41,136 nt of DNA from a virus: positions 1 to 41,136 of the IMG/VR virus record IMGVR_UViG_3300028173_000020. One strand, written 5' to 3'. The notes beneath the pieces were generated by a model that saw only the letters and a list, made by a program, of their open reading frames with translations, searched no databases and was not told the DNA's origin. Every line of letters starts with the position of its first letter. Position 1 is the first letter of the stretch. Both the position numbers and the translations under genes were made by a program. Below are positions 6,634-40,339 of this stretch, one piece after another.

Positions 6634-6964
6634 GCGCCTCCATGTGGCAACGGCGACAGAGCACCATGATGTTGCCGGGTTCATTGTTTAGGGTGTTACC
6701 ATCGACATGGTGGCGCTCGGACTTGGCCGCGTTGCACTTTTCACACGGGCCTATGTCAGGGTATGCGCGCAGCGCGCGCGCTCGGCCTGCCTTCACTGAG
6801 GCATCGTCACCTGCCCACGCGTGATGCTCCGCGCCCCAACGCTTTCTCTTTTCGATATGGTCCACGGACTGCTTGAAGCCGACGCGAGGACCCGGCCTCC
6901 GTTTGGGGACATCCTCCCCTCGCTTCCTGGCTCTGTACCGCGCCGCACGTTCCTTTTCGGTCAT
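6617..6964 (-). CDS. HNH endonuclease
   Basis: A 115-residue HNH nuclease. The C-terminal half carries the zinc-binding and catalytic frame CEKCNAAKSERHHVDG, then NTLNNEPGNIMVLCRRC and HMEAHGR. The N-terminal half is basic (YRARKRGEDVPKRRPGPR) and probably binds DNA. Free-standing HNH genes of this size in phages are often homing endonucleases, and some assist packaging. Here the gene lies between a methyltransferase and what looks like a fragment of a methyltransferase start, so a mobile origin is plausible. The start is ATG 6964, preceded by GGTGGAG. Confidence 0.87.
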   Translation of the reverse strand: MTEKERAARYRARKRGEDVPKRRPGPRVGFKQSVDHIEKRKRWGAEHHAWAGDDASVKAGRARALRAYPDIGPCEKCNAAKSERHHVDGNTLNNEPGNIMVLCRRCHMEAHGRIG

Positions 6965-7015
6965 GTCTCCACCTTGGTAGTTCGTGACGAACAGTGCCGC
7001 GGCCGCGCATGGAAG

Positions 7016-7060
7016 TCAATGATAGATCGTAACCGCGTCGTCTTGGTAGTACGGCTCCAT
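7016..7060 (-). pseudogene. 14-codon methyltransferase N-terminal remnant
   Basis: An ATG at 7060 overlaps the upstream stop as TGATG and reads MEPYYQDDAVTIYH before a TGA at 7016-7018. This resembles the usual opening of phage DNA methyltransferases, which continue with GDC. It aligns with residues 13-25 of the downstream methyltransferase (EYFYCDDSVCIIH; 7 of 13 identical). Past the stop about 50 nt are non-coding before the HNH start. I read it as a leftover start of a methyltransferase gene broken when the HNH segment arrived. An expressed leader peptide is the alternative. Confidence 0.55.
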
Positions 7061-7314
7061 CACTGCGCACCTTCCCACAGCCTGAGCCCGAGCAACGCCG
7101 TGCGCAGCTGCACCTGGCCGCTGACACTGCGCGTCCCGCCCTCCCCCGTGAAGGTCCACGCCCCGGACCACATGCCCTGCGGCGTCGGCCGGGTGCGCTC
7201 GACGGTGACGGCGCCGCCGCATAGGGATAGGCGCTGGCAGTAGGGGTCGCGGCGCTCCACGGAGTGCTCGATGCCGATGGATTCGATTAGGTTGATGGTT
7301 TCGGTGAGGGTCAT
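7060..7314 (-). CDS. hypothetical protein
   Basis: An 84-residue protein, no family recognised. It starts TLTETINLIESIGIEHSVE and continues with a beta-rich part (CGGAVTVERTRPTPQGMWSG, then WTFTGEGG and SVSGQVQLRT). The ATG at 7314 overlaps the Dam-type methyltransferase stop as ATGA, which fixes the start. The stop overlaps the ATG of the 14-codon methyltransferase remnant as TGATG. Such overlaps suggest it was once coupled to an intact methyltransferase immediately downstream. Confidence 0.6.
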   Translation of the reverse strand: MTLTETINLIESIGIEHSVERRDPYCQRLSLCGGAVTVERTRPTPQGMWSGAWTFTGEGGTRSVSGQVQLRTALLGLRLWEGAQ

Positions 7315-8303
7315 GCGAAAAGCCCGAGTTGAGTGGTGGGTTCGATGCACGCCGGGGAAAACCACACGGCTTCAAGGTCGGTGGTCTTGCCGCCCGAGTA
7401 GGTGAGCCGGCCCCGGCTCCATTCGACGACATCCCATCCGGGCAAGTCGTAGTCTCCAACGTGTCCGCACAGGGCAATCCGAAGGTCGGCGTGTTCTGCG
7501 CACCATGCCGCGACAGCGAGCGCCACGGGGGCCCCGTCGAGGCCGTATAGCGATTCATACTTGAGGTATGGAGGGTCGAGGAACACCGCCGTATCGGCGC
7601 CGCCGTAGTGATGGTTGAGCCCCCGGTTCCACGACCCATGAAGCACCCTGCACCGTTCCAGCCGGTTAGCGATCTTGTGTAGCCAGACCCACGCGGTTCG
7701 TCCGCCCGATGTCATCAGGTCGCCCATGCCGGCGTTTCCCGAGTGCGGGATCTTGCCGACCGCCTGCACGCCACGGCCGGCGTCGGAGGAGTGCGGGATC
7801 TGACCGACCGCCTGCACGCCCATGCCGGCGTTTCCCGAGTGCGGGATCTGACCGACCGCCTGCACGCCCATGCCGGCGTTTCCCGAGTGCGGGATCTTGC
7901 CGAACCAGTCGCACCAACCGGAGCCAATCCAGCAGCACTGCCCCCACAGCCACCAGCCGGCCACTTGCGCACAACCCGGCCAGTTCGGGTCTTGCAACTC
8001 AGCGCCGAGGCGAGCGCGCTGCTCCATCAACCAGCGGTGGCGCGCGCCGAGGTCGATGTGGGAGACGGGGTAGTCCGCCCACCGCGCCACCTCGGCGGGT
8101 TGGTGCTTCACAGCCCGCCAAAAGTTGGCCAGAAAGCCGTTCAGGTCGTTGACCACTTCCAGGCTGGCGGGCTTCGGTGCGCCGAGCAGCATAGCGGCAG
8201 ACCCGCAGAACGGCTCGATGTACTGTTTCGGCTTGCCGAGGCGTTCCCACACCATGTCGATGATCGTTCGCTTGCCGCCGAACCACGGGAAGGGTGCTCT
8301 CAC
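7311..8303 (-). CDS. Dam-like DNA adenine methyltransferase with repeat insert
   Basis: A 330-residue D12-class N6-adenine methyltransferase. PFPWFGGKR (4-12) and FCGSAAMLL (32-40) bind AdoMet, and LDPPYLKYESLY (242-253) is the catalytic motif. Between them, residues 136-196 consist of about four 16-residue units (IPHSGNAGMGVQAVG) encoded by 48-bp repeats. A similar variable Asn/Gly repeat insert occurs in other phage Dam-like proteins and probably forms a surface loop near the DNA-recognition region. The start is GTG 8303 with GAGGAGGTGA upstream. It may protect phage DNA from host GATC-type or similar restriction; the target sequence is unknown. Confidence 0.9.
   Translation of the reverse strand: MRAPFPWFGGKRTIIDMVWERLGKPKQYIEPFCGSAAMLLGAPKPASLEVVNDLNGFLANFWRAVKHQPAEVARWADYPVSHIDLGARHRWLMEQRARLGAELQDPNWPGCAQVAGWWLWGQCCWIGSGWCDWFGKIPHSGNAGMGVQAVGQIPHSGNAGMGVQAVGQIPHSSDAGRGVQAVGKIPHSGNAGMGDLMTSGGRTAWVWLHKIANRLERCRVLHGSWNRGLNHHYGGADTAVFLDPPYLKYESLYGLDGAPVALAVAAWCAEHADLRIALCGHVGDYDLPGWDVVEWSRGRLTYSGGKTTDLEAVWFSPACIEPTTQLGLFA
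7723..7906 (-). repeat. 48-bp coding tandem repeats in the Dam-like gene
   Basis: Units lie at 7723-7770, 7771-7818, 7819-7866 and a 40-bp partial unit at 7867-7906. Units 1, 3 and 4 are nearly identical; unit 2 has diverged. Each full unit is 16 codons, so copy-number change keeps the frame. Confidence 0.9.
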
Positions 8304-8446
8304 GGACTCACCTCCTCAATCATCCGGTCCGCCTCATCCTCCCCGACGAGGTCCGCCAGGCGCCCATACAGCCGCAGGCGGCGCGCGGGGTCGAGGGCCA
8401 TCACGTAGGCCAGGGCGAGCTCGCGGGCGCGGTAGTTGTCGGTCAT
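8300..8446 (-). CDS. 48-residue hypothetical protein
   Basis: A short acidic/basic helical protein: TDNYRARELALAYVMALD, then RLRLYGRLADLVGEDEADRM. Its ATG (8446) overlaps the upstream zinc-ribbon gene stop as ATGA. Its end overlaps the GTG of the Dam-like gene and supplies that gene's GAGGAGG ribosome site. The overlaps on both sides support translation. The function is unknown. Confidence 0.6.
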   Translation of the reverse strand: MTDNYRARELALAYVMALDPARRLRLYGRLADLVGEDEADRMIEEVSP

Positions 8447-8685
8447 CCTATCTCCATCTGCTGTCCCGGCTCAGGCTTGCCCTCCGTGGGGGTGGCGCAG
8501 TCCGAGCAGGTCGGTGTAAGGCGAACCATCGCGAGCACGGCCTGTGCCTGCTCCTGGTCCGCGCAGTCGTGTGATTTGGGCCCGTCGCAGCGGTCGCAAA
8601 GCCAGATGACGCGGAGGCCATCGGTGCCGCGGTAGATGCGGGGCGCGGGTCGGGTCGGGCATGCCGGGGCCCACCAGGGGGTCAT
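8443..8685 (-). CDS. small zinc-ribbon protein
   Basis: An 80-residue protein with IYRGTDGLRVIWLCDRCDG, a second pair in CSDC, and further Cys/His that suggest a four-Cys zinc ribbon. No enzymatic domain is seen. A longer reading beginning near 9165 would run over the methyltransferase in another frame and is very Arg/His-rich, so it was discarded. ATG 8685 overlaps the methyltransferase stop as ATGA. Such mini zinc ribbons are common in phage early operons, often with unknown partners. Confidence 0.6.
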   Translation of the reverse strand: MTPWWAPACPTRPAPRIYRGTDGLRVIWLCDRCDGPKSHDCADQEQAQAVLAMVRLTPTCSDCATPTEGKPEPGQQMEIG

Positions 8686-9326
8686 AGCAGCACCCCTTGG
8701 TCGGCGTGGTGCCAATCCGTCATCGGCTCCAGAAACGTCTCGGGCGCATCGGGGCACGGCTGCTGCTGCCACACGAACCATGCGCACGTCGCGCTGTCGC
8801 TCTTCCCATCGCCGGTGAAGCACGGACGCGGGTTGAGTACGTGGACCCACGACGGCGGCGTGTCCCGCCAGATCTCCCGTCGGTCCTTGGTCGGCTCGAT
8901 CCACGTCATGCGCATGAGCATCGCGACGTTGGGCGTGATGGCCAGCGCGGCGCGGACGAACGCGGAGGACTCGGAGAACGGCGGGTTGGTGATGATGGCG
9001 CCTACCTTCGGCATCATCGGCGGCTCGGGGTCGGCGTAGGTCGCCAGCCCTTCCAGCGTGAAGTCCCAGGTGTAGTCCGCGCCAACCTCGGGGCGAATGT
9101 CGCCCGTGATAACGTCCGCGCCCCGCGCCTTGAGCGCGTCGCTGATGTTGCCCTCCCCGGCGCACGGCTCAAGGATGGTCCCGCACTGCAAGAGCCACGG
9201 GTGACGGTCGAGGAGCGCCGTCACGAGCGGATTGGGCGTGTAGTAGGCGTCGAACTCACGCCGTCCCGCACGGTCCGCAGCAGCGGCGCCTACGCCCAGC
9301 GTTGATTGGATCGCGGCATCTTTCAC
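8682..9326 (-). CDS. N6-adenine-type DNA methyltransferase (EPCAGEG/NPPF)
   Basis: A 214-residue AdoMet-dependent methyltransferase. DAYYTPNPLVTALLDR (27-42) is typical of phage and type I/IIG-like adenine methyltransferases. ILEPCAGEGNISDALKARG (51-69) is motif I, GDIRP (75-79) binds the ribose, and IITNPPFSES (111-120) is the catalytic motif. The C-terminus WVHVLNPRPCFTGDGKSDS resembles the usual end of this family. The order is gamma-like. The start is GTG 9326 with AGGAGG 5 nt before it, and GTGA overlaps the upstream gene. It is the fourth DNA methyltransferase in 6.7 kb. Confidence 0.85.
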   Translation of the reverse strand: MKDAAIQSTLGVGAAAADRAGRREFDAYYTPNPLVTALLDRHPWLLQCGTILEPCAGEGNISDALKARGADVITGDIRPEVGADYTWDFTLEGLATYADPEPPMMPKVGAIITNPPFSESSAFVRAALAITPNVAMLMRMTWIEPTKDRREIWRDTPPSWVHVLNPRPCFTGDGKSDSATCAWFVWQQQPCPDAPETFLEPMTDWHHADQGVLL

Positions 9327-9631
9327 GCCGCCCTCCTGCGCAGATTCGCACCCCAGCACACCCCGTGCGCGATGTCGTCAATCGTCTCGGGTTGGTCGCC
9401 CGTCCACCCCTTGGAGTGATCCACGGCGTACACGTCCCCGGAGCCGTCAGCAGCCCACTCGATCTCGATGGGCCCCCGCTGGAGCTTGCGGACGCCGTCG
9501 GGCATCACCTCGCACAGGTAGACACGGGCGGTCTTCATCTCGGTGCCGTTCCACGTCCAGGCGTCGATGGTGTCGTGTTCGTTGAGCCGTGCCGCGATGC
9601 GGTCGGCGGTGTTGATTCGGTCAGCGTTCAT
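9323..9631 (-). CDS. hypothetical protein
   Basis: A 102-residue protein, family not recognised. It starts MNADRINTADRIAARLNEHD, then has a beta-rich core (TARVYLCEVMPDGVRKLQ, PIEIEWAADGSGDVYAVDH) and ends in a basic NLRRRAA tail. ATG 9631 overlaps the upstream stop as TGATG. A GTG one codon earlier is in frame but less consistent with the overlap pattern. Confidence 0.55.
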   Translation of the reverse strand: MNADRINTADRIAARLNEHDTIDAWTWNGTEMKTARVYLCEVMPDGVRKLQRGPIEIEWAADGSGDVYAVDHSKGWTGDQPETIDDIAHGVCWGANLRRRAA

Positions 9632-14923: not shown

Positions 14924-15450
14924 TGACCCACCTCGGCCACATCCCCGTCTCAGACCTCCCCGCCGAGGGCTACGCCGACATCACCTGCCGCGTCGTCCTC
15001 ACCTACCAGACCCGCGGACCCCTGCGCGCGACGGTCGAGGACGCCAGCGGGGAGACGGTGGTGGCGGTCGGGTGGAAGTGCCTGACAGGCGACGCGGAGT
15101 CGCTTGTCACGCACGGCGCAATCCTTCGGATGCGGATTGAGTGCAGCGTCACCCGCAAGGGCGCGACCGTCTACCGCAACCGCGACCTGTTCCGGGTGCG
15201 CGAGCTCCGCGAGGGTGAGTCGCTGGACACGGAGGCCATCGTCGGCAATGAGACCGAGATCTTTTGTCCATACGGCTGCTACTGCGACTGCTCGACGTGG
15301 ACCGAGCACGCCTCGAGGTGGGGCGGATGGAAGGCGCTGACCTGGGACAAGCGCCAGGAGGGCGCTGACAAGGCCCGCGACGACTACACGCTGTGGACGA
15401 TGACCGCGGCTAGCGAATCCGACCCGTCGGATGTCGCGGCGGGCGGGTAA
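14923..15450 (+). CDS. hypothetical protein
   Basis: A 175-residue protein, family not recognised. A beta-rich N-terminus (GYADITCRVVLTYQTRGPLR, ATVEDASGETVVAVGWK) leads into RMRIECSVTRKGATVYRNRD and a Cys cluster FCPYGCYCDCSTW. The C-terminus is acidic. ATG 14923 forms a TGATG with the upstream stop. A 326-nt non-coding, strongly structured segment follows. Confidence 0.55.
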   Translation: MTHLGHIPVSDLPAEGYADITCRVVLTYQTRGPLRATVEDASGETVVAVGWKCLTGDAESLVTHGAILRMRIECSVTRKGATVYRNRDLFRVRELREGESLDTEAIVGNETEIFCPYGCYCDCSTWTEHASRWGGWKALTWDKRQEGADKARDDYTLWTMTAASESDPSDVAAGG

Positions 15451-15776
15451 CGGGGCCTTGGCTCCACAGACTGGAGGGGTTCTGTTCGACGAGTCTGCGT
15501 CGTTCAACCAGACTCAGGCGGCGGTCTTCGGGCCGTCGCCGTATGGCAGCTGCGCCGCACACCTCTTGCCGGGTGTCGCGGCGGGGTCCACGTCCCAGAC
15601 GTGCGGGGTTCAAATCCCCGAGCTGCCACTGGCGCCACCATCGGGCCCTACACAATGGCTACCGAAGCAATGCGGAGGGGCCTTCTTGTGGTGATTTTCA
15701 GACGTTGCAAGCGCGGACTTCACGCAAGGGGCGCTTCGCAGGCTCGACGGATGGCGCCGAAGTACAGGAGGAAGAG
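15451..15776 (+). other. 326-nt structured non-coding region
   Basis: The gap holds consecutive hairpins at 15462-15476 (CTCCA/TGGAG), 15491-15515 (GAGTCTG/CAGACTC) and 15517-15540 (GGCGGCGG/CCGTCGCC with one G-T pair), then the tRNA-like element at 15545-15628. From 15629 to 15776 I see no gene or motif except the ribosome site of the next gene. A reading frame through the region (15431-15694) looks like translated RNA structure and is not supported. Confidence 0.6.
15545..15628 (+). ncRNA. tRNA-like element with abnormal middle
   Basis: GGCAGCT (15545-15551) pairs with AGCTGCC (15621-15627) followed by A, a 7-bp acceptor stem with discriminator. A canonical T-arm CGGGG-TTCAAAT-CCCCG fills 15604-15620. 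Between them lie a 10-bp hairpin (about 15554-15582, GCCGCACACC with GGTGT-C-GCGGC and an 8-nt loop) and a 6-bp hairpin CACGTC-CCA-GACGTG (15589-15603) that resembles a class II variable arm. No normal D-arm or 7-nt anticodon loop can be drawn, and CCA is not encoded. It may be a degenerate tRNA, a tRNA mimic or an attachment relic. Confidence 0.5.
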
Positions 15777-16115
15777 ATGAAGACCGGAACAGTAGTGAAG
15801 CGACGCAGCAGCCACGCCAGAGATCGGCTCGACGTGTACGACGAGGGCCGACACCTTGGGTCCATCGTGCGCGAGGCCATGCACGGCGGGGTTCGCATCG
15901 TCGGCGGTGAACTGGATGGCGAGTGGAGGGCGTGTCCTGGCGCTGGCGTGATCAGCGTGTGCAGGATGGGGGGCGTTCGCCCGCCGCTGCGTGAGAAGGT
16001 GTCGAGGGGCGCCACCCCGGAGCCGAAGAATATCTACATGGACGGCGGGCTGCGCAATGTCGGATTCTTGCACGGCGGGCAGGCTGCGGATGACCCGGCG
16101 GGGATGTGGAGTTAG
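15777..16115 (+). CDS. hypothetical basic protein
   Basis: A 112-residue protein, no recognised family. KTGTVVKRRSSHARDRLDVY, GGVRIVGGELDGEWRACPGA, then MGGVRPPLREKVSRGATPE. It is glycine-rich and basic, with a tail KNIYMDGGLRNVGFLHGG. ATG 15777 has AGGAGGAAGAG upstream, a strong site, after the structured gap. Its TAG stop (16113-16115) overlaps the TAA of the convergent minus-strand gene by 2 nt. Confidence 0.6.
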   Translation: MKTGTVVKRRSSHARDRLDVYDEGRHLGSIVREAMHGGVRIVGGELDGEWRACPGAGVISVCRMGGVRPPLREKVSRGATPEPKNIYMDGGLRNVGFLHGGQAADDPAGMWS

Positions 16116-16549
16116 TTGGTCAGCGCGCCAATTGCGTAGCCCGACCCGCCCGCCAGCAGCACTCCCAGCGCGACGTACACCACCACCTCGACGAGCGTGT
16201 GCCGCTCGGCCACCTCCTCCCCCAGCCGCAGCACGCCCGCCGTGAGGTCTACCACCTGGGCGGATAGCGCCTCGTCCCGCGCGAGGTAGGCCGCTTGCTC
16301 ATTCGACAAGGTGAGCCGCTGGCCTGCGCACGTCTCGAGGTCAGCGACGGCCAAGGTCAGGGCGTCCTCGATCTCGGTCCACCGCGCGAGCTGCGCGGGC
16401 GTCACCGCGTAGAGCGCCAAAGCTCCACACGAGATGCGGACGGGCACGCCCTCGGCGTCGGAGGAAACCACAGCGCAATCCGCCGAGGCGGTGAGCGGCG
16501 CGAGGGTGAGAACGGCGATTAGGGCGATTGCGTGATAGCGGGGGTTCAT
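16112..16549 (-). CDS. exported membrane-anchored coiled-coil protein
   Basis: A 145-residue protein. It has an N-terminal signal peptide (NPRYHAIALIAVLTLAPLTA, cleaved about A22-A24), a helical periplasmic part (LARWTEIEDALTLAVADLET, LSNEQAAYLARDEALSAQV) and a C-terminal transmembrane helix (VVVYVALGVLLAGGSGYAIG). An exported N-terminus with a C-terminal anchor is the topology of unimolecular spanins, but there is no lipobox (SADC), so the assignment is only a possibility. It is the lone minus-strand gene inside the plus-strand block. GAGGTGACAC precedes ATG 16549, and its promoter would face the plus-strand promoter at 16604. Confidence 0.55.
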   Translation of the reverse strand: MNPRYHAIALIAVLTLAPLTASADCAVVSSDAEGVPVRISCGALALYAVTPAQLARWTEIEDALTLAVADLETCAGQRLTLSNEQAAYLARDEALSAQVVDLTAGVLRLGEEVAERHTLVEVVVYVALGVLLAGGSGYAIGALTN

Positions 16550-16684
16550 CGTGTCACCTCAGAAGAATCGACAAATAAAACGCACGCGGTGTGCATTTAG
16601 GGGTTGTAAAGCACACGCGGGGTGTATATAACTTACTCATCGGGTTGGCGATGGAGCCCCCGACGAACACCGAGACGAACCAAG
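16550..16684. promoter_or_regulatory. divergent intergenic region between 16549 and 16685
   Basis: This AT-richer segment separates the exported membrane protein (minus) from the 108-residue gene (plus). It holds the plus-strand promoter at 16604-16632 and inverted repeat GTGTGC (16589-16594)/GCACAC (16611-16616), which flanks the -35. No clear minus-strand promoter was found. Confidence 0.55.
16604..16655 (+). promoter_or_regulatory. twin promoter/leader, copy 1
   Basis: TTGTAA (16604-16609), a 17-nt spacer and TATAAC (16627-16632) are followed by the leader TCATCGGGTTGGCGATGGA (16637-16655). The 19-nt leader is identical in copy 2 at 17649-17667. It drives the gene at 16685. Confidence 0.75.
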
Positions 16685-17011
16685 ATGACCACCATCCACG
16701 CAATCGACGCCGCCGCCGCCATCCAAGGTCACCTGCTCGTGTCCGGTTACCGCGCCATGGCCGCTGACAACGTTGTCACCGTTCGCGCCGCCACCAAGAG
16801 CGAGGCCCTCGCGGCTTTCGATTCGGTCAAGGCATTTGCCAAGACGCTGGGACGCAGGGTCAAGCCCTCGATCAACCGCCGCCGCTTGAGCGGTCGCCAC
16901 TTCGACGGCTGGGTGATGGGACTCGCCATCGTGCGGAACTCCTCGGAGACGGATGAAATGTCCGCAGGTTCGTGGCGCACCGCCCACAAGGCGCGCAACG
17001 CGATGGCCTAA
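16685..17011 (+). CDS. hypothetical basic protein
   Basis: A 108-residue Ala/Arg-rich protein, no family recognised. TTIHAIDAAAAIQGHLLVSG, then TVRAATKSEALAAFDSVK, and a basic KTLGRRVKPSINRRRLSG segment that may bind nucleic acid. ATG 16685 has only a weak GAGACG upstream, while an ATG at 16651 lies inside the shared leader in another frame, so the start is inferred from coding character. It follows the copy-1 promoter. Confidence 0.6.
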   Translation: MTTIHAIDAAAAIQGHLLVSGYRAMAADNVVTVRAATKSEALAAFDSVKAFAKTLGRRVKPSINRRRLSGRHFDGWVMGLAIVRNSSETDEMSAGSWRTAHKARNAMA

Positions 17012-30118: not shown

Positions 30119-31261
30119 TTACGCGGACTGAAACTGGATTGCCACAATCCCGCTTTGCGTCGTGATGCTCGTATCAACGCCGAGGCCCTGGTTGGTCCCG
30201 GCCTCAAAAGCCTGAAGCGGAGCGGCGCCAACCGCGGGGCTGCCGTCAGCCGCCTCGGGGTACCGGCCATGGACCGTAATGCCCCACGTCTTGAGCCCGT
30301 TGTCGGCCACGTCCTCGGAGATAGCCCCGACGATCTGGCCGTAGCCGAGCACTTGCATGGTGTCCGGTGACGCTGCCGTCCCCGGCTTCGTGAACGTGAA
30401 GTTGAGTTCCATTCCCTGCTGGGTGTCGCGCAGGGTGTACGGATCCCAATCGTCGAGATCCACCTGCTCCACAACCAGGTTCCACACGACCTGACCCGGC
30501 ACCGCGCGGATGCGACCGATGCCGTAGTTGCCGCTGACAGCCGGGTCCGCCGCGATCTGGAACCCGAGGTCCAGCGACAGGTCGCGGATCTTGACCGTGT
30601 TGGTCGGCGTGCCCAGCGTGCCGCCGCCGTACAGGCTGTCGTCGCTCAGGTCGATCAACTTGGCGGTGGATGCGCGCGAGATCATCGCCCGGTCGCTCGG
30701 GTAGGTCAGGGACGGCGCTGCTGCGCCATTGCTCGCGTTGCTGGCGTTGCTGGAGTACAGCCCCTCGCCGTTGACGCTGATCCGCATCGGCAAGCCCGGC
30801 GTGAACTGGAACGTCAGGTTGTGACGACAACCCGGCAGCACGCGGAGGTTGGTGTCAGCGTTGGCCGCATCCACCATGCCCACGTTCATCCACACCGAGT
30901 TGTGGTTGAACGGCTCCAGGAAGTAGGTGTGCGTCTTGTCCGTCGCGTTGCTGACGCGGTTGAACAGCACTTGCAGGATCGGGTCAACGTTGGGCGCGTC
31001 GGCGTCGTTGGCGCTGGAGATCGTCGCCATGCGGATGTCGGCGTCGAAGCTGTACGGCATCCGAATCACGCCGGGGTCGCTCATCCAGCCAAACGGGTGG
31101 CCCGTCGAGATCCCCGTGCGCGGGTTGTCGTCCTGGTCGAGGCCGATGCTCAGATTCTCCACGTAGAGCAGATCGGTGGTGGCAACCGTGGGGTCGGTGT
31201 CGTAGGTCGATTCCTTCTTTGCGTACAGGAACCCGCGGTTGGGCATCAGTTCGTTGGCCAT
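30119..31261 (-). CDS. major tail tube protein
   Basis: A 380-residue structural protein, large for a tube protein, but placed directly upstream of the chaperones. ANELMPNRGFLYAKKESTYD opens, followed by beta-rich segments (TVKIRDLSLDLGFQIAAD; VVWNLVVEQVDLDDWDPYTL; GMELNFTFTKPGTAAS). It would polymerise into the non-contractile tube. AGGAGGCACACC precedes ATG 31261, a strong site for a highly expressed protein. The extra length may hold an exposed Ig-like domain. Confidence 0.7.
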   Translation of the reverse strand: MANELMPNRGFLYAKKESTYDTDPTVATTDLLYVENLSIGLDQDDNPRTGISTGHPFGWMSDPGVIRMPYSFDADIRMATISSANDADAPNVDPILQVLFNRVSNATDKTHTYFLEPFNHNSVWMNVGMVDAANADTNLRVLPGCRHNLTFQFTPGLPMRISVNGEGLYSSNASNASNGAAAPSLTYPSDRAMISRASTAKLIDLSDDSLYGGGTLGTPTNTVKIRDLSLDLGFQIAADPAVSGNYGIGRIRAVPGQVVWNLVVEQVDLDDWDPYTLRDTQQGMELNFTFTKPGTAASPDTMQVLGYGQIVGAISEDVADNGLKTWGITVHGRYPEAADGSPAVGAAPLQAFEAGTNQGLGVDTSITTQSGIVAIQFQSA

Positions 31262-32390: not shown

Positions 32391-33503
32391 CTAGGGAGCG
32401 GTGGTGAACACGCCCATGTTTCCGCCGCTGGTCACGCCGCGGAAGATCGCGCCGAAGTTGGCGTCGGTGTCGGACTGGTAGCGCGGCGCGATGATGTGGT
32501 AGCTGGAGCGAATCTGCCAGTAGGTAGACTCGTACTTCTCCTCTCGCCACGTCACCACGGTCGGCATACGGCCCCACGCGATGGCCAGGCCACCGTCGGC
32601 GCCGGTGATGGCACCGCCCGCAGACACGTCGAAGTTGGGCCGGGTGTGGTCGTCCAGGGTGAACGACAGCAGCGGGCCAACCGTCGAATCGGTCGCGAGG
32701 TAGTTGGGCGCACTCGTCTGGCCCGGAGCCACAGTGTCAGCGACGCCCTCGTAGATGCGGACCTCGTCGATCTTGTGGATGTCCATGAACCGCTCGACGA
32801 TCGCCTGACGCGTCATCTTGCCGGACAGACCAGCGGTGCGGGACGTGAGCAGGCCCACGCCGGTGTAGTCCGGGTGCTCGCTGAGAATGTCGAGCACCAG
32901 CGGGTGAACGTGGCACACGAGCCGCAGCCCGAGCGACTGACGCCACCGCAGGCCCTGGAGCGCGCTGTTGATGTCGCGGACCGGCTGCTGGTTGGCGTAG
33001 TCCGAGGGATCGTCGAGGCCCTTGGTGCCCGTGCCGGTGAAGGACACGACCGCGCCGTAGTTCGTGGCGTTGTAGAGCGCGCCCACGAGTCCGCCGTCGA
33101 TCGCCTGCGAGGCTTGCGCCATGAGCAGGGGCACACCGTCGCCGCCCATCGCGAGATCTTCGAACAACTGGTCGCCGTTCACGCCGGCCAGTTCGTCGTC
33201 GGTCTTGCTCAGGATGAGGCCGGCGTAGCCAACGGGCGTCGCCGTGACGGTGCCTTTCTTGACGGTGCCGATCTGCCCGAGGGCTTCACCGGGCTCGTAG
33301 GCGTGCCACAGGCCCGTCTTGTCGAGCGCGTTGTCGATCTTCGGCAACTGCCAGGTGGTGTTGCGCCGGTTGGTGCGCCGGTCGTGCGTGAGCACTTGCG
33401 GCGCTTTGGGGTACTGGTAGACGCCCATATCCTGAACCCAGGATCGAGCGACCATCGTCAGCGTCTCATCGACCGTTGCGGCCTGGAGATAGCTTTCAGC
33501 CAT
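32391..33503 (-). CDS. major capsid protein
   Basis: A 370-residue protein, most probably the HK97-fold major capsid protein. It starts AESYLQAATVDETLTMVARS and has beta/alpha segments with MPTVVTWREEKYESTYWQIR and SYHIIAPRYQSDTDANFGAI at the end, in line with E-loop and P-domain-type capsid proteins. AAGGAGG before ATG 33503 is one of the strongest ribosome sites in the window. It follows the decoration-like gene and the protease in the order expected for this type of phage. Confidence 0.75.
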   Translation of the reverse strand: MAESYLQAATVDETLTMVARSWVQDMGVYQYPKAPQVLTHDRRTNRRNTTWQLPKIDNALDKTGLWHAYEPGEALGQIGTVKKGTVTATPVGYAGLILSKTDDELAGVNGDQLFEDLAMGGDGVPLLMAQASQAIDGGLVGALYNATNYGAVVSFTGTGTKGLDDPSDYANQQPVRDINSALQGLRWRQSLGLRLVCHVHPLVLDILSEHPDYTGVGLLTSRTAGLSGKMTRQAIVERFMDIHKIDEVRIYEGVADTVAPGQTSAPNYLATDSTVGPLLSFTLDDHTRPNFDVSAGGAITGADGGLAIAWGRMPTVVTWREEKYESTYWQIRSSYHIIAPRYQSDTDANFGAIFRGVTSGGNMGVFTTAP

Positions 33504-33517
33504 TGTTCAGGCCCTCC

Positions 33518-34219
33518 TTACGGGTGGCTCATCGCGGGGATGAGCGTGATGTTGAAGATCTTGCCGTCGCCGTCGTACGCGGCCTGTCCGACGTTCTTGA
33601 GACGGATGGTGACGACACCGGCGGCGCTGACCCATGCCTCGGAGACAGCCGAACCGTTGAGCAACGTGGTCGCGCTCGGGTTCGCCTGGACACCGTCGCC
33701 CACAACCGCGTTGGTCACGGCTACGGTCAGGTCGGAGAAGTTGGTGGTGGGGCCCGAGCCAACGCTGGCAACGGTTCCGAAGTCCAGGGTGCCCGACGTG
33801 GTCAGGTACGGCTTCCGGTCCAGCGCGGAGGCCGAACCGAACAGGAACACGCGGATCTCGTCACCGTTGGCCGCGTCGCGACCGTTGGTGCCAGCGCCCG
33901 GCTTCGGCAGGTACTGCCCGATCGGAACCTCGCCGGAACCCGGAGCCCACTTGTCCATGCGGCTGTCGGAGCCGATGGTCAGGAAGTCACCCGGCTCCAG
34001 CGCCTCGCCGGCGAGGGCCTTGCCGTGGCCGAACGTGAGAACGTCAGCGGCCTCGTCGTCGGCGGGGGCGTTCTGGAGGATTCCCGCGAAGGTCAGGACA
34101 ACCGCGGAGGTCGCGGCCTTGACGTTCTCGGTGTCGGCACCGTCGCGGTAGACCGCGAGGTACTGGCTGGACGAAAGGTCAGCGCCAGCGTTGAATTGCT
34201 CGATGACACAGATGCTCAC
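33518..34219 (-). CDS. capsid decoration-like protein (DUF2190 type)
   Basis: A 233-residue protein whose first 120 residues match DUF2190-like decoration proteins in layout (NAGADLSSSQYLAVYRDG, AATSAVVLTFAGILQNAP, GEALEPGDFLTIGSDSR). A C-terminal beta domain (TTSGTLDFGTVASV, DLTVAVTNAVVGDGV) might be exposed on the capsid. Such proteins stabilise the expanded shell. It lies between the protease and capsid genes and overlaps the protease stop by 4 nt. A surface-exposed target for glycosylation by the cassette upstream is conceivable. Confidence 0.68.
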   Translation of the reverse strand: MSICVIEQFNAGADLSSSQYLAVYRDGADTENVKAATSAVVLTFAGILQNAPADDEAADVLTFGHGKALAGEALEPGDFLTIGSDSRMDKWAPGSGEVPIGQYLPKPGAGTNGRDAANGDEIRVFLFGSASALDRKPYLTTSGTLDFGTVASVGSGPTTNFSDLTVAVTNAVVGDGVQANPSATTLLNGSAVSEAWVSAAGVVTIRLKNVGQAAYDGDGKIFNITLIPAMSHP

Positions 34220-35208
34220 TGCGCACCTCCTGCCGCGATGCGCACGGCCTCAGCGTGGGTTTTGCCGTCAGCCATGGCGCGCTTGAAAAGCTCCCCGCGC
34301 GACATGTTGCCGGTGTTGGTGCCCGCCGTGCCGACGGGAACGATGGGCTGCGCGCCGCGCTTCTCCACGTCCTTGCGGACGCCCTTGAGAACCGTGACAG
34401 ATGCCCGCTCCCAGAAGTCGCCCACGAAAGCCTCGCGGAGTTCCGCGGTGACCTCGATGAACGATCCGTCCGGCAGCGTTTGCGCGAGCTTCGCGCGGTC
34501 GCGGTCCATGCGGGCCTGCGCCTCGCGCTTCTCCAGGTCGTCGATCCGGGCCAGCAGCCCCAGCACTTCCGCGCTGCGCTCGCCGTCCTCGTCGCCGTCC
34601 GTCTCGTCGCCGTCCGTCTCAGACTCCGACGCCATCGACGCGATCTGCTCCTCAAGGCCGGCAATCCGCGCCTCGAGGGCTTCGCGCCCGTCGTCCTGCG
34701 TCGTGGCCTCAGCCACTCCGCTCTCTTCCGTTGCCATGCGAACCTCCTCGATTCTGGCACTTTCACCAGCGGGAATCGCGACCACGGACACTTCCGGCAG
34801 ATCGCAATCCGTGAAGATCACCACCCCGTCGTCCGCTCGCTCCCGCCATTCGTTTGGAATGAATCCGACACTGAGCCCATCGGCTACGTCGGCTTTGATT
34901 GCGGCCAGCGCGTCGTCGCCTGCCCGAGTCGGAGCAATGTCCGCCTCCAAGTGCAGGCCGCGGTCGTCCTCGGTCAGGGTCGGCTTGCCAATCGGCATGG
35001 ACCGATCGTGCGACCACAGCAGGACGGTGCGCTTGCTCGCGATGTAGGAAGAGAAGCAGCCGCGCTCAAACGCGGTGTCGTAGGTGTCAACCTCGCCCCA
35101 GACGACGGCGTAGCCGCTGATGCAGCGACCCGACGTGCCAGACTCGCGCACGCTCAGGTCGTGCAGCGTCCTCGTTTGGAGTTTGCCCTTGGCCGGTCTG
35201 TCGCTCAT
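34216..35208 (-). CDS. prohead protease with scaffold-like tail
   Basis: A 330-residue protein. Residues 28-160 are an HK97-type U35 serine protease: GYAVVWGEVDTYDTAFERG, LLWSHDRSMPIGK (His67), LSVGF (Ser113) and DLPEVSVVAIPAGESA. Residues from about 160 form a long helical, acidic segment (REALEARIAGLEEQIASM, then a DGDETDGDEDGE run) like the delta/scaffold domain of capsid proteins. The C-terminal part has no known motif. The protease clears the scaffold during head maturation. ATG 35208 follows a promoter-like element at 35242-35270. Confidence 0.85.
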   Translation of the reverse strand: MSDRPAKGKLQTRTLHDLSVRESGTSGRCISGYAVVWGEVDTYDTAFERGCFSSYIASKRTVLLWSHDRSMPIGKPTLTEDDRGLHLEADIAPTRAGDDALAAIKADVADGLSVGFIPNEWRERADDGVVIFTDCDLPEVSVVAIPAGESARIEEVRMATEESGVAEATTQDDGREALEARIAGLEEQIASMASESETDGDETDGDEDGERSAEVLGLLARIDDLEKREAQARMDRDRAKLAQTLPDGSFIEVTAELREAFVGDFWERASVTVLKGVRKDVEKRGAQPIVPVGTAGTNTGNMSRGELFKRAMADGKTHAEAVRIAAGGAQ

Positions 35209-35241: not shown

Positions 35242-35280
35242 GAGATAGCGATTCAAAACTAGATCGTCAAGGTATTGACG
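35242..35280 (-). promoter_or_regulatory. capsid-operon promoter with palindrome
   Basis: On the minus strand TTGACG (35270-35265), a 17-nt spacer and TATCTC (35247-35242) precede the protease gene. The -35 is one arm of the perfect palindrome CGTCAA-GGTA-TTGACG (35265-35280), suggesting repressor control. The -10 is weak. It follows the sulfotransferase stop and would give the capsid genes their own transcript. Confidence 0.45.
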
Positions 35281-35294
35281 TGAACGGGCGGATG

Positions 35295-36011
35295 CTATCG
35301 CCAGGAATAGCCCACTTCAGGGGCCATGCTGTGAGCGCGCGTCCACAGTTCTCCCATCCATTGCGAGGACGTGGGATCGTCACGCCACCGGCCCCGGCCG
35401 TCGAAGATCGGCTGGCTGATCTGCCACGTGCGGCGCTGGGCGTGTGCGGCTTGCTCGTCGGCGGGCTCCGCGGCGGGCGGGGTCATGCCCTGCCACACCT
35501 GCCGGTTCTCGTGGTGGTGCAGCATCGCCGGGGAAAACGGCACACCCAGCCACGCGCACAGCGCGGTCAGGCTGGCGGTCGGATCTTCAACCAGGTCCTC
35601 GTAGCGCAGCTGGCGCACGCGAGGGTGACGCCGCCAGCGGACAACGTCGCGGTTGGCGCGGGTCCAGCGCGTGATAGCCTCGTCCGTGGTCATTCCGCGA
35701 GCTCGCAGCGATGACACCACGTCACGGGGATCGCGCGTCATGGCGATGACCTGCGCGCCGGCCACCGTGTCCAGGATGCGCTCGATGCGGCGGACGTGGC
35801 TCGGGGTCTTCTCCACCCAGCGGGAAGCGCCACGGGCCTTGGCCTGCCGGTTGAAGGTCGCCACCTTGCGCTCGATGTCAGACACGCGCGGCGTGTGAAA
35901 CGTCCCCGTCTCCGTGCGCACCAGGTGGATGTCAGGGTGAGCGTCGAGCAGCACGGCCAGCAGCGTCGTTCCGCTGTGACCGCAACCGACGATCAGGATG
36001 GGCGGACGCAT
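35295..36011 (-). CDS. PAPS-dependent sulfotransferase
   Basis: A 238-residue sulfotransferase-family protein. ILIVGCGHSGTTLLAVLLD (5-23) is the 5'-phosphosulfate-binding loop of PAPS enzymes, VEKTPSH (66-72) the conserved E-K-T-P segment, VIAMTRDPRDVVSSLRARG (88-106) the 3'-phosphate-binding motif with Arg93 and Ser100, and RYEDLVEDP (136-144) the usual core end. The family transfers sulfate from PAPS to a sugar or other hydroxyl. The gene overlaps the glycosyltransferase gene by 19 nt and lies between portal and prohead protease. The C-terminus is His/Arg-rich. A reading from 36161 was discarded as overlapping; ATG 36011 has no strong ribosome site, so coupling is likely. Confidence 0.88.
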   Translation of the reverse strand: MRPPILIVGCGHSGTTLLAVLLDAHPDIHLVRTETGTFHTPRVSDIERKVATFNRQAKARGASRWVEKTPSHVRRIERILDTVAGAQVIAMTRDPRDVVSSLRARGMTTDEAITRWTRANRDVVRWRRHPRVRQLRYEDLVEDPTASLTALCAWLGVPFSPAMLHHHENRQVWQGMTPPAAEPADEQAAHAQRRTWQISQPIFDGRGRWRDDPTSSQWMGELWTRAHSMAPEVGYSWR

Positions 36012-37213
36012 AGGTGGGTGTCCCCGGTGTCGGTGAACTGGCGGTGGGGCCAATCCTTGACCAGTGGCGCGACGAACGGCCACAGCGTCCCTCGCAGGTC
36101 GTTGAAGATGAGCGCGCCGCCCTTGGCCAACGTGCCCCGCTCGATTGCAGCACGGGCACACTCCACAGCGGCGACGCCATCGACGGCGACCAGGTTGTAG
36201 GGCCCGTTATCCGTGACCGCTTGCGGGGCGATGTAGTCCTCGTTCTCGCCGTCGGGCACCATGCACAGCGTGAGATTGCCGGGGTGCCCCATGCGCTCGT
36301 AGCGACTCCAGCCCCATGCCAGCCACAGCGGCGAGTGCTCCACGCTGGTGACGGCCCGCGCTCGCTGCGTCAGCCACAGCGTCGAGTCGCCGGAACCGTA
36401 CTCCAGCACGTTGCAGGTCGAATCCAGGTGGGTGTCGAGCCAGTCAACAGCGTCGTCAGCCCATCGCGGCCGCGCGACGATGCGCTGCGGGGGCGGACTG
36501 TTGTGCAGCCGCATGACAGCCGCGATTTGGCCGGGGCTGGTCGATGCATTCTCGCGCAGCGGGCCCTGCCCGATGATGGTCCACGGCGCCTTCTGCGCAG
36601 TCTGCCCCGCGTCAGGAAACGCACGCGGCCACATGTTCGCGGAGTGCTCGAGGCACAGCGTACCGACGCCAACGCCCCGGCAATCGTAGGGCACGTAACC
36701 GGCCTCCGTCAGCCGCATAGAGACGGCGCCGTCGAGACCCTGTTGCAGGTGACAGGGGAACCCGCCGGCCATCTCCATCGCCTCGGCGGTGATCGAGAAA
36801 GCGCACCCGGAATGCCGAGCCTCGCCGTGCCATGCGGCGACCTTGAGCGTGGACACCTCGCAGAACCGGACCACCGACGACACGCACCACTCGGCGCCAG
36901 CCTCCAGCGCCTTGACGGTGTCGGCGAAGCGGTACGGCGGGGGCAGGTCGTCGTCCCCGGTGAGCATGAGCAGTTCCCCGTCGGCCATCTGGCGCGCAGA
37001 TTCCCACCGCTGGCCCGGCCACCACTTCTTGGTCGGAGCGTAGGTCACGCCCAGATCGTCGCACACCTCGCGCCCCGGATCGTCCGGGTGCCCCGAGACA
37101 ACCGCGGCGACCTCCCATCCCTCGACGGGGTCTTGCGCCAGCGCCAGGCGTAGCACCTCGCGCAGCAATTCGGGGCGGTAGTGGGTGGCGAGAATCCAGG
37201 TTGCGCGCTTCAC
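35993..37213 (-). CDS. GT2 glycosyltransferase fused to methyltransferase domain
   Basis: A 406-residue two-domain protein. Residues 4-200 resemble GT2 (GT-A) glycosyltransferases: ATWILATHYRPELLREVLRL, WESARQMADGELLMLTGDDD (the DxD-type D87-D89 metal site), and DGAVSMRLTEAGYV. Residues about 250-406 look like an AdoMet-dependent class I methyltransferase: NVLEYGSGDSTLWLTQRA (268-285) as motif I, TSVEHS (289-294), and VTDNGPYNLVAVDGVAAVEC. The two activities in one chain suggest a sugar is added and a methyl placed on it, or a methylated sugar made. The start is GTG 37213 with GTGA overlap to portal. The sulfotransferase gene follows. Confidence 0.75.
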   Translation of the reverse strand: MKRATWILATHYRPELLREVLRLALAQDPVEGWEVAAVVSGHPDDPGREVCDDLGVTYAPTKKWWPGQRWESARQMADGELLMLTGDDDLPPPYRFADTVKALEAGAEWCVSSVVRFCEVSTLKVAAWHGEARHSGCAFSITAEAMEMAGGFPCHLQQGLDGAVSMRLTEAGYVPYDCRGVGVGTLCLEHSANMWPRAFPDAGQTAQKAPWTIIGQGPLRENASTSPGQIAAVMRLHNSPPPQRIVARPRWADDAVDWLDTHLDSTCNVLEYGSGDSTLWLTQRARAVTSVEHSPLWLAWGWSRYERMGHPGNLTLCMVPDGENEDYIAPQAVTDNGPYNLVAVDGVAAVECARAAIERGTLAKGGALIFNDLRGTLWPFVAPLVKDWPHRQFTDTGDTHLCVRPS

Positions 37214-38565
37214 TCGGCGGGCTCCATTGGCTCGGGTTGCTCGTCTTCGGCGTCCATCGGCGCAGCGTAGCGCACCGGTGCCACGTACAGGTAGCCCTCG
37301 GCGACAGCCGACGGGAACGCCACCTCGACAGCGCGGCGCAGCAGCCACCGAGTCTTGCGGGCCACCCGCTCAAGCGGGAGCGTGTAGGCGTCCAGCGCCT
37401 CTTGCCCCGCCGCCTCGCGCGCAGCGAACGACCCGTGCTTGAGCAGCCCCAGCAGCTTGTGGGACTGATTCAGCGCGTATCCAATCAACCGCTCGTAGAT
37501 CGCCGCCTGCGCCGTGAAGTCGGGCACCGCGTCTTGCGGGCTCAGGAGCTCCACCTTGTAGGCGTCGTTGATGACGAACGGAATGTGCTCGGCAATGTAG
37601 TTTTTGAAGTGGTCGCGCAGTTCAAGCGCCACCGTCGGGTCGCCGCCGCGGGTCGGGTCCATCGGCGTTCCGACCCACGTCCCCAGCGCGTTGACCTCGC
37701 AGGCCAGGGCTTGCAGCCGGTAGATATCGATCAGGGCCTTGATCGCCTCGACCGCTGGCCGCAGCGACGAATAGCCCTCCAGGTCGGAGGGCCCAGCCTC
37801 GTGCAGGGTGAAGTGGCAGACGTGTTCCCACGGGATCGCGACGCCGCCGCTGTATTGGTACGGCAACCGCTGGATCACGGCGCGGGGCCGCTCATTCTGG
37901 AGCACCCACCCGGACACCGTCCAAGGCGCGCGAAACTCGGGCAGGTTGAGCAGCGGAACCGTGGCCATGCCGAGGTCGCCCATCGGCATCGTGTGCAGGT
38001 CGGCGGACAGCTCGCCCCACGAGAACCCGGACACCATCGCGAATTGGATCCAGTCCGTGTGCATCCTCAGCAGGTCATAGTCGGGGCAGGACTCCGTCCA
38101 CGAGTGCCACGCGCGCTGCTGGATCTCCCACTGCACATCGCGCCAGAAGGTCGCCAGCGGGTCGTTTTGCTGCCACGCCGGGATCTCGGGTTTCTCGATT
38201 CCCCACGGCGCCGTCGCGATGTTGCCCACCGTGTCGTCCACAGCTGCCGCGACCTGCGGGATGTTCCGCAGTCGCCACAGTTCGCCGGGGTCGGTGCCAC
38301 ATCCGCGGGCCTTGAGCGGAGACAGGTCGGGATGGTGCTCGAGGCGCAGAAGGCCACGGCACCACGGCAGACCTGGCCGGCCAGCAACCTCCCACGATCC
38401 ATCCGCGGACTCGGTCGCCGTCGCGGCGCCGGTGTCAATCGGTGCCTCCGAAGCCTCGCGCCACTGGATACCCTCGGCGGCGCGGCGCCACTCGCGGAGA
38501 TGTTCTTTCTTCATCCGGGGCATCCTGATCCCCAGATCGTCGGCCTTGCCGTCCTCGGTCACCAT
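37210..38565 (-). CDS. portal protein
   Basis: A 451-residue portal protein that forms the dodecameric DNA channel at the capsid vertex. The order next to the large terminase and the sequence pattern agree: GTDPGELWRLRNIPQVAAAV, WDIQ-like W-rich segments (FWRDVQWEIQQRAWHSWTES), SGWVLQNERPRAVIQRLPYQ, and a C-terminal helical SHKLLGLLKHGSFAAREAAG. ATG 38565 or GTG 38562; the latter makes GTGA with the terminase stop. The gene downstream is the glycosyltransferase instead of the protease. Confidence 0.8.
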   Translation of the reverse strand: MVTEDGKADDLGIRMPRMKKEHLREWRRAAEGIQWREASEAPIDTGAATATESADGSWEVAGRPGLPWCRGLLRLEHHPDLSPLKARGCGTDPGELWRLRNIPQVAAAVDDTVGNIATAPWGIEKPEIPAWQQNDPLATFWRDVQWEIQQRAWHSWTESCPDYDLLRMHTDWIQFAMVSGFSWGELSADLHTMPMGDLGMATVPLLNLPEFRAPWTVSGWVLQNERPRAVIQRLPYQYSGGVAIPWEHVCHFTLHEAGPSDLEGYSSLRPAVEAIKALIDIYRLQALACEVNALGTWVGTPMDPTRGGDPTVALELRDHFKNYIAEHIPFVINDAYKVELLSPQDAVPDFTAQAAIYERLIGYALNQSHKLLGLLKHGSFAAREAAGQEALDAYTLPLERVARKTRWLLRRAVEVAFPSAVAEGYLYVAPVRYAAPMDAEDEQPEPMEPAE

Positions 38566-40124
38566 GCTCGTCTCCTGCTCGCGGGCTTGTCCGGTACCCC
38601 AAGATAGGTGCCGCCGCGCGATCTGTCACCTCCGAGATAGATGACAGCCTGGGAGAACGCGTCAACCTCGTCGTCGTACTTGCCCGACGGAAACCGCTTG
38701 AGCACTTCGGCTACACGTCGCACCCACGCGCGGCGGTGGTCGTCCTCGTGAGGGATGAACACACGCCCCGCGGTGACAGACTGGCCCGCGATGTTCGCCC
38801 GCTCCTCTTTGCCGCCCATCTTCTGGGGCGAGAACCGGAACACGTTGGTGATGCCCTCCTGGCGCTCGAGGTCGCGGATCAGCGCGACGCCGTTGGCTTG
38901 GTCCTCGATGACCAGCCGGACCTTGTCGGTCCGCACGGTGCGCGGAGTCCACGCCCTCGCCATCTCGGCGGCTTTGACGCACAGCCCGTCGAAGTCCAGC
39001 TTCTCGGCGTAGGAGTAGAGCAGGAAGTAGCACGACAGCGTTTCATGCCGCGACCCCGTGCGCACCAACTCCGCGCCCTGCATCTCGTAGACCGGAAACT
39101 CGCCCGTCACCATGCGCGCGCCCCACACCTGGAACGCGCAGCGGTCGGACCTCACGGCCTTTTTGAATGCGGAGTCGATGGAGATGGCGACGGTGTCGAA
39201 CACCACCTCGGGGTCGTTGAGCGCGCGGTCCAGGTCGAACCGGCGGAAGTGGCTCACGTCGAACTTGCCGCCGCCTTCCGGGATCGGGTTTTGCTGGTAC
39301 AGACACGCCCACTCGGACGGGGTCGAGGTGGCTTTGATGTCGTCCCAGTGCTCCATCCCGAAACGCTCGGGGTGCAACGCCTCCCCCTTCTTTCGGTGGC
39401 GCTCGTCTCGGACAGCGACGGCGGGGTAACTGACTACCTGCCACCGGTCGCCGTCGTCTGCCGCCATCAGTCGCCCCGGCAGGTCGTCGTCGTGCCAGCG
39501 CGTCATCAGCATGACGATACCGCCGCGGGGCGATAGCCGGTTGTAGATTGAGCTCCGGTAGCGGTCGTGCACCATGTCGCGGTGAGCTGCGCTATTGGCC
39601 TGCATTTCCGATTTGAACAGGTCGTCCAGTATCAAGATGTCCGAGCCCGACCCAGTGATTGAGCCACCCACTCCGATTGGGTTGTAGCCCCCGCCCGCCG
39701 TCATCCTCCACCGCGTGATGCCCTTGCGGTCCGTCTCCATGACGGAGTCGGGGAACGTGTCTGCGTACCAGTCGCGGCGCACGATGTCGCGGCAGTCGTA
39801 GCTGAATGAGTTCGCCAGGTCGGACGAGAACGAAATGACCATGTACTCGAGCGTCGGGTCATGGCCCAGCCCCCACGCCGGGAAGCACCGCGTGGCAATC
39901 TCGGACTTGCCAGACCTCGGCGGCATGAAGATGGCCAGCCTGGGTTTCTTGCCCGCCTGAACGTCGCGGTAGAACTGCTCCAGGGCCGCGCAGACTTCCT
40001 CGTGTACCCAACCCGCGAGGTAGCCGGGGTTCGCGTCGATGACGAACTCCAGCAGGCTGTCGCGGCGGGCCACGCGGTCGGCCTCTACGCAGATGTCGAT
40101 GGCGGCGGTCAAGGCATTCCCCAT
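38559..40124 (-). CDS. terL: terminase large subunit
   Basis: A 521-residue packaging motor. ATPase: Walker A FMPPRSGKSE (66-75), Walker B ILILDD (163-168), followed by VMLMTRWHDDD. Nuclease (RNase H-like): SIDSAFK (D317), VIEDQANG and KYDDEVDAFSQAV near the C-terminus. The protein pulls DNA into the prohead and cuts the concatemer. The start ATG 40124 lies within the end of the zinc-ribbon gene. A TTG (40112) making TTGA with that gene's stop is an alternative. Reading from 40244 is considered too long. Confidence 0.93.
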   Translation of the reverse strand: MGNALTAAIDICVEADRVARRDSLLEFVIDANPGYLAGWVHEEVCAALEQFYRDVQAGKKPRLAIFMPPRSGKSEIATRCFPAWGLGHDPTLEYMVISFSSDLANSFSYDCRDIVRRDWYADTFPDSVMETDRKGITRWRMTAGGGYNPIGVGGSITGSGSDILILDDLFKSEMQANSAAHRDMVHDRYRSSIYNRLSPRGGIVMLMTRWHDDDLPGRLMAADDGDRWQVVSYPAVAVRDERHRKKGEALHPERFGMEHWDDIKATSTPSEWACLYQQNPIPEGGGKFDVSHFRRFDLDRALNDPEVVFDTVAISIDSAFKKAVRSDRCAFQVWGARMVTGEFPVYEMQGAELVRTGSRHETLSCYFLLYSYAEKLDFDGLCVKAAEMARAWTPRTVRTDKVRLVIEDQANGVALIRDLERQEGITNVFRFSPQKMGGKEERANIAGQSVTAGRVFIPHEDDHRRAWVRRVAEVLKRFPSGKYDDEVDAFSQAVIYLGGDRSRGGTYLGVPDKPASRRRAW

Positions 40125-40339
40125 GCCACGGGGCTGCTCGTCTCGCCGTCGAGCGTTGGTCGGCACATCGCACAAAAGACCTGTGACGGATACACGTGGT
40201 CCCCGCACTGGCGACAGATGCGCCACATGCGCACGACCTTCCATCCGTCACCCTCGTCGATGACCTCGTCGATGCGCGCAGCCCACGCGGCGCAGAACTC
40301 GGCCTCGGCGGCTTCGTATATGTCGCTGGCGGCGGTCAC
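40109..40339 (-). CDS. small zinc-ribbon protein near terminase
   Basis: A 76-residue protein. TAASDIYEAAEAEFCAAWAA is helical; CRQCGDHVYPSQVFCAMC forms a four-Cys zinc ribbon. GTG 40339 overlaps the upstream stop as GTGA, and its stop lies inside the terL 5' end. Such proteins sometimes lie near packaging genes, but no function is known. Confidence 0.6.
   Translation of the reverse strand: MTAASDIYEAAEAEFCAAWAARIDEVIDEGDGWKVVRMWRICRQCGDHVYPSQVFCAMCRPTLDGETSSPVAWGMP

Follow-up and report, generated by a model that had tools for sequence, protein, structure and literature searches.

Genome and Head-Module Organization

The window, that is, the whole stretch of DNA that was analyzed, is the complete IMG/VR virus record IMGVR_UViG_3300028173_000020 (41,136 bases, classed as linear). 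It is the genome of an uncultured tailed phage, in which Pfam and PHROG searches recognize the large terminase subunit (TerL), a prohead protease, a tape measure protein, a DnaB helicase, exonuclease VIII and RecT; no tyrosine integrase (PF00589) was found by profile search of the 41,136 bases. The minus strand carries, in order, a small-terminase candidate, TerL, a 451-aa gene at the portal position, a glycosyltransferase-methyltransferase fusion (GT-MT), a sulfotransferase, the prohead protease, a 233-aa protein (33518-34219, a decoration candidate), the probable capsid protein and the tail genes. The features of this module that matter here are:

38559..40244, minus strand: terminase large subunit (phrog_38, E 1.2e-89)
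37210..38565, minus strand: portal-position gene, 451 aa (position, size and gene order)
35993..37213, minus strand: GT2-methyltransferase fusion (GT-MT), 406 aa, GTG start (PF00535 and PF13578-like)
35295..36011, minus strand: PAPS-type sulfotransferase, 238 aa, ATG start (PF13469)
35265..35280, minus strand: weak terminator-like hairpin, located in the 86 nt that separate sulfotransferase and protease (promoter/terminator scan)
34216..35208, minus strand: prohead protease, Peptidase_S78 (PF04586, E 1.7e-25; phrog_80, E 5.4e-43)
32391..33503, minus strand: probable major capsid protein, a candidate acceptor (position and size)
30119..31261, minus strand: tail protein, possibly the tail-tube protein, a candidate acceptor (phrog_290 "minor tail protein", E 6.3e-6)

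Positions 35295-37213 (minus strand) hold exactly two genes, GT-MT and the sulfotransferase, directly before the prohead protease. A preliminary description of the locus had named these two enzymes and set them between portal and protease. The enzymes are confirmed on the minus strand (PF13469, E 9.6e-27; PF00535, E 2.1e-6; homologues of the methyltransferase part), at scores well above what chance would give, and so is the protease (PF04586, E 1.7e-25), but the portal is a positional assignment only. The gene at 37210-38565 is called portal from its position, size and gene order because a portal-sized large gene comes after TerL in the TerL relatives inspected; its product has no match in families, PHROGs, PDB sequences or hhalign profiles. 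Searches of Pfam, PHROGs and PDB sequences likewise gave nothing for the probable capsid protein (32391-33503). The head module is divergent: the capsid and portal-position proteins are unmatched, although TerL and the protease are ordinary. Short exact-pattern scans of viral contigs, which distant relatives escape, found no relative of the prohead protease or of the portal-position protein.

A separate stretch of the same strand (2677-9359) contains several DNA-methylase-like genes, including:

5947-6684, minus strand: DNA methylase (PF01555)
2677-3210 and 8682-9359, minus strand: ORFs with DPPY/NPPF-like motifs

In the middle part of a Dam-like DNA methylase of this region (7311-8303, minus strand), 'IPHSGNAGMGVQAVGQ' recurs in frame about four times in near-identical copies; this part could be a repeat-variable recognition segment. 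A replication-initiator-like ORF (4544-5545, minus strand) carries four tandem SDVRDSV repeats.

The Sulfotransferase

The sulfotransferase matches PF13469 (E 9.6e-27, 95.1 bits against a cut-off of 27) and PF00685 (E 3.6e-9). Its motifs are GCGHSGTT at residues 9-16, EKTP at 67 (K68) and RDPRDVVSS at 93, and the C-terminal motif of the subfamily, QxxQPxFDGRGRW, ends at W209. Residues G14, E34, R93 and S101 are invariant across 24 homologues, and R93 and S101 align with the RDGRASVHS segment of tyrosylprotein sulfotransferase (TPST). We take GCGHSGTT to be the 5'-PSB loop, R93 and S101 to form the 3'-phosphate site, and E34, as a candidate, to occupy the position of the TPST catalytic Glu. The AF2 model has a mean pLDDT of 94.8 and a pTM of 0.92. 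In Foldseek, its best match is human TPST2 (3ap3, E 7.3e-11), and the PDB sulfotransferases that it matches include structures with PAP. TPST2 and TPST1 are the best fold matches, but at a TMq of 0.74 and an identity of about 20%; the best sequence matches among solved structures are also tyrosylprotein sulfotransferases. Sequence and model together indicate that the protein is a PAPS-type sulfotransferase whose predicted PAPS-site residues and fold are intact. The state of the PAPS site had been set beforehand as one of the tests on which the first interpretation could fail, and both residues and modeled fold (pLDDT 94.8) are preserved. A longer, 288-aa ORF with a GTG start was rejected as the gene, as homology begins at the ATG at 36011.

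The Glycosyltransferase-Methyltransferase Fusion

The N-terminus of GT-MT matches PF00535 at residues 6-124 (E 2.1e-6, 28.2 bits against a cut-off of 23.3), which places the GT2 domain at about 37198-36842 of the window. It contains a DXD-type motif, GDDDLP at 86 with DDD at 87-89; for the proposed sugar-nucleotide site, the check covered this motif. The methyltransferase part spans approximately residues 248-376, with EYGSG at 271 (SAM motif I), SVEH at 290 and VDG at 344-346. The C-terminus aligns with the whole PF13578 (Methyltransf_24) profile, at E 0.031 and 15.6 bits, below the cut-off of 26.3. A search of 385 alphaproteobacterial genomes gave a match in 14 of them (best E 5.2e-11), and 13 of the 15 matching places cover the methyltransferase domain. 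The proteins matching this half are standalone methyltransferases, and all three that were scanned are Methyltransf_24 members. Because homologues down to E 5e-11 include such members, the assignment holds despite the weak profile score, and the C-terminal half stands, from sequence comparison, as a predicted class I SAM methyltransferase of Methyltransf_24-like type. No relative of GT-MT is present in Mesorhizobium or the seven other genomes searched, and none was seen in viral contigs by short exact-pattern scans, which distant relatives escape. Neither GT-MT nor the sulfotransferase has a similar protein among 50,697 phage records. A structure model of GT-MT built without an alignment was set aside (pLDDT 38.9).

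Neither cassette protein has a membrane-spanning stretch (top 19-residue mean hydropathy of 1.14 and 1.71 in the two proteins), and both enzymes look soluble from their sequences. Both frames are open with intact motifs, and the two genes have a codon usage typical of this genome.

Coupling to the Portal-Position Gene

GT-MT starts with the GTG at 37213 and stops at 35993-35995; the sulfotransferase starts with the ATG at 36011 and stops at 35295-35297. The start of GT-MT overlaps the end of the portal-position ORF by 4 nt, and the start of the sulfotransferase overlaps the end of GT-MT by 19 nt. With its starts overlapping the preceding stops in this way, the cassette is translationally coupled, being read from the same mRNA as the portal-position gene. 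It may close a terS-terL-portal transcript instead of lying within a continuous long head operon, because a terminator-like hairpin comes next, fitting in place though not in number: three terminator-like sites were found in the stretch vs. 2.4 expected by chance. The earlier placement inside the head operon therefore holds as far as coupling to the portal-position gene is concerned, but the weak hairpin may separate the cassette from the capsid transcript.

Distribution of the Cassette

Three IMG/VR relatives by TerL also contain a homologue of the protease (L059, L063, and L072). In each of these, the start of the protease ORF coincides with the end of the portal ORF or precedes it. The usual order was said to be portal followed by protease; in 3/3 such relatives nothing lies between the two genes, and the cassette is extra by comparison. 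A PF13469 sulfotransferase occurs in 0/45 TerL-related records, which rules out the cassette as a usual trait of the lineage, and a GT2 gene is present somewhere in 7/45. Because relatives lack the insert and PF13469 is missing from all 45 records, the cassette appears to be a sporadic acquisition within the TerL lineage. A comparison of this slot in related phages had been suggested beforehand; outside the TerL lineage, Corndogviruses have a similar enzyme set, lacking the sulfotransferase, in the same slot (see below).

The subfamily search found two further viral members of the sulfotransferase subfamily, both on IMG/VR contigs. In the tree, these two, the window enzyme, three sequences from Mesorhizobium and one from a MAG form a clade of 7 (support 95/97). 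One contig (IMGVR_UViG_3300005663_000716, 16.9 kb) encodes a prohead protease (PF04586, E 2.7e-27) and a capsid protein (PF05065, E 3.8e-45), followed on the same strand by several unknown genes, a GT2-like gene, a hexapeptide acyltransferase, the sulfotransferase and two methyltransferase-type genes. On the other (IMGVR_UViG_3300032293_002041, 229 kb; L175), the genes ahead of the sulfotransferase encode GT8-type, GT-D-like and Methyltransf_24 proteins together with another sulfotransferase, of the PF03567 type; a search for a PF04586 protease on this contig gave nothing. All three viral subfamily members found (3/3) adjoin glycosyltransferase and methyltransferase genes. A further candidate, L176, was rejected as a member, since it lies on a long branch outside the clade and has no adjoining glycan genes.

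Two side observations concern these neighborhoods. In L002, two tandem paralogous proteins of 314 and 317 aa (2868-4813) are encoded directly upstream of the glycosyltransferase-acyltransferase-sulfotransferase genes; they may be surface proteins of the virion and serve as candidate acceptors. In L175, positions 1084-8693 form an eight-gene glycan cassette that encodes a Methyltransf_24 protein and sulfotransferases of two kinds (PF13469 and PF03567).

The nearest cellular relatives are found in Mesorhizobium, with 38-41% identity over nearly the full length. These PF13469 enzymes have the same GCGHSGTT and QPxxDGRGRW motifs as the window sulfotransferase, and they are chromosomal, in large glycan gene clusters. 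The clusters hold glycosyltransferases and further sulfotransferases (read from translations and partly checked with profiles) and, judging from this gene content, look like surface-polysaccharide loci.

Glycosylation Cassettes in Actinophages

The Corndogviruses Idergollasper and FoulBall have the gene order portal, O-methyltransferase, three glycosyltransferase-type genes, capsid maturation protease and major capsid protein (portal at 15089-16318, O-methyltransferase at 16315-16899, protease at 19136). Their sugar enzymes lie in the identical slot between portal and protease, and the O-methyltransferase shares 4 nt with the portal ORF, just like GT-MT and the portal-position ORF here. The slot enzymes modify capsid and tail-tube proteins, according to a statement in PMC11600133 (citing Freeman 2023). 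A second likeness to the window is found in Che8: gp108 (391 aa; PF00535 at 31-132, PF13578 at 243-348) is a GT2-Methyltransf_24 fusion of similar size and with the same domain order as the 406-aa GT-MT. The Che8 capsid protein carries glycans, as reported in PMC11256854. In MiaZeal, a methyltransferase and glycosyltransferases come directly after the capsid gene, and in Gordonia phage GMA2 a methyltransferase/glycosyltransferase-type pair lies just before the major tail gene.

The window phage belongs to a different lineage from the actinophages. Its glycosyltransferase and methyltransferase have no blastp or phmmer match beyond chance to the actinophage enzymes, and the hhalign probability is 4-6%. 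Because pairwise similarity is absent, the parallel rests on architecture and slot, and the likeness stems either from very remote common ancestry or from convergence in design and location. A glycosyltransferase together with a predicted Methyltransf_24-type O-methyltransferase in the head module is common to the window and the actinophage cassettes. The two differ in that the actinophage cassettes (Corndogvirus, Che8 gp108-110, Omegavirus) have three glycosyltransferase-type genes vs. the one found here. The sulfotransferase is absent from all five actinophages with such cassettes that were tested, and is the window's addition relative to them.

Proposed Function and Alternatives

The cassette may decorate the virion, adding a methylated, sulfated sugar to virion proteins; this reading, moderately probable, is the one favored here. 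Late in infection, ribosomes reading the portal mRNA would continue into the cassette. In the cytoplasm, the GT2 domain, which looks soluble, would transfer a sugar from a nucleotide-sugar of the host onto a structural protein, the most likely acceptor being the capsid or the tail tube. The fused SAM methyltransferase would then O-methylate the attached sugar, and the sulfotransferase would add sulfate from host PAPS. The virion glycan would be short, as expected from a single glycosyltransferase, methylated and sulfated, and hence anionic; it might shield the particle, tune adsorption or add stability. The sugar, the order of the reactions and the placing of the sulfate on the same glycan are what we infer from the enzymes. 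Support for decoration comes from the Corndogvirus slot, the Che8 fusion, the placement near head and tail genes in MiaZeal and GMA2, the neighborhoods of the viral sulfotransferases, the Mesorhizobium clusters, and the intact predicted PAPS site and fold. Against it stand the lack of similarity to the actinophage enzymes, one glycosyltransferase vs. three, the positional identification of portal and capsid, the hairpin that possibly separates the capsid transcript, and a closest solved fold that acts on tyrosine. The idea of virion decoration, already put forward in the preliminary description, thus gains comparative support from the Corndogvirus slot and the Che8 fusion but not sequence similarity to those enzymes.

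The main rival is modification of the host surface, where late glycosylation, methylation or sulfation of LPS O-antigen or capsule sugars would block the adsorption of competing phages. It owes this rank to the nearest cellular sulfotransferases, which belong to apparent surface-glycan loci, the glycosyltransferase-rich Mesorhizobium clusters; GT2 and Methyltransf_24 enzymes are themselves typical of surface-polysaccharide loci. It is nevertheless rather unlikely: neither protein has a membrane-spanning stretch, the glycosyltransferase does not match the PHROG GtrB family, no integrase (PF00589) was found, a cassette coupled to the portal gene would come late for exclusion, and the actinophage counterpart in the same slot acts, as stated in PMC11600133, on virion proteins. 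Features of a gtr-type O-antigen conversion cassette were looked for, and no GtrB PHROG match, hydrophobic segment or PF00589 gene was found. Because the enzymes look soluble and no integrase was found, cytoplasmic modification of virion proteins fits better than lysogenic seroconversion.

The two genes could also be passenger cargo (a moron), a host-derived pair of polysaccharide genes that settled where an insertion is tolerated and that changes the virion little or not at all. The sporadic acquisition indicated by PF13469 in 0/45 TerL-related records is in keeping with this, and L175 is maybe cargo of another kind. Open frames, intact motifs, ordinary codon usage and the tight start/stop overlaps all speak against mere passage, as does the finding that unrelated phages (Corndogvirus) have comparable enzymes in this slot, and this explanation is judged improbable. 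Still less credit is given to direct protein sulfation, in which the sulfotransferase would act on Tyr (or Ser/Thr) of a virion protein independently of the GT-MT sugar. Its best solved-structure matches by fold and sequence are indeed tyrosylprotein sulfotransferases (3ap3, E 7.3e-11), but this fold match is common to PF13469 enzymes generally, the cellular members of the subfamily lie in glycan clusters, and all viral members adjoin glycosyltransferases. Finally, phage DNA glycosylation is well known and this genome encodes several DNA methylases, but hypermodification of phage DNA by the three activities against restriction is highly improbable, the cassette being coupled to the portal gene and not to replication genes, its methyltransferase being of the Methyltransf_24/TylF O-methyltransferase kind and not a DNA methylase, and no base-precursor pathway being recognized among the annotated genes.

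With virion decoration as the favored reading, a wider proposal can be made tentatively, at a little less than an even chance: some tailed phages coat their virions with a sulfated, O-methylated glycan, and a glycosyltransferase-methyltransferase-sulfotransferase cassette has been taken into structural operons on more than one occasion (here and in IMGVR_UViG_3300005663_000716).

Comparison with Known Systems

Glycosylation of phage virions has been reported recently, almost wholly from mycobacteriophages. The preliminary description knew of no established system with a sulfated virion glycan, and the open-license literature agrees: no report of a sulfated phage virion was found in it. Phage sulfotransferases have been annotated before, with a function that was called unclear (PMC10580990). 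Those of OM43 phages, Synechococcus phage S-SCSM1 and Xanthomonas phage FoX4 share the superfamily and fold of the window enzyme but are distant from it (11-17% identity in fold alignments).

Among other viruses, Chlorovirus PBCV-1 A064R is a GT-GT-methyltransferase fusion that builds the methylated end of the capsid glycan; it is likened to GT-MT here by description only. Glycogene clusters of chlorovirus or mimivirus type belong to eukaryotic giant viruses and concern N-glycans, those of mimivirus type having sulfate-metabolism genes. On the basis of such a giant-virus gene cluster, sulfate decoration of sugars has been proposed for Moumouvirus australiensis (PMC9614988).

If the wider proposal of a sulfated glycan coat in some tailed phages is true, bacterial viruses would have their first known sulfated virion. 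A sulfotransferase in the glycosylation slot would give the coat a fixed negative charge, with possible effects on adsorption, particle stability and recognition, and phage sulfotransferases, unexplained in the literature (PMC10580990), would gain a concrete function. The gap between portal and protease would then be the place to seek such cassettes in phages of any host. Virion glycosylation cassettes as such are known in actinophages; their combination with a sulfotransferase is new.
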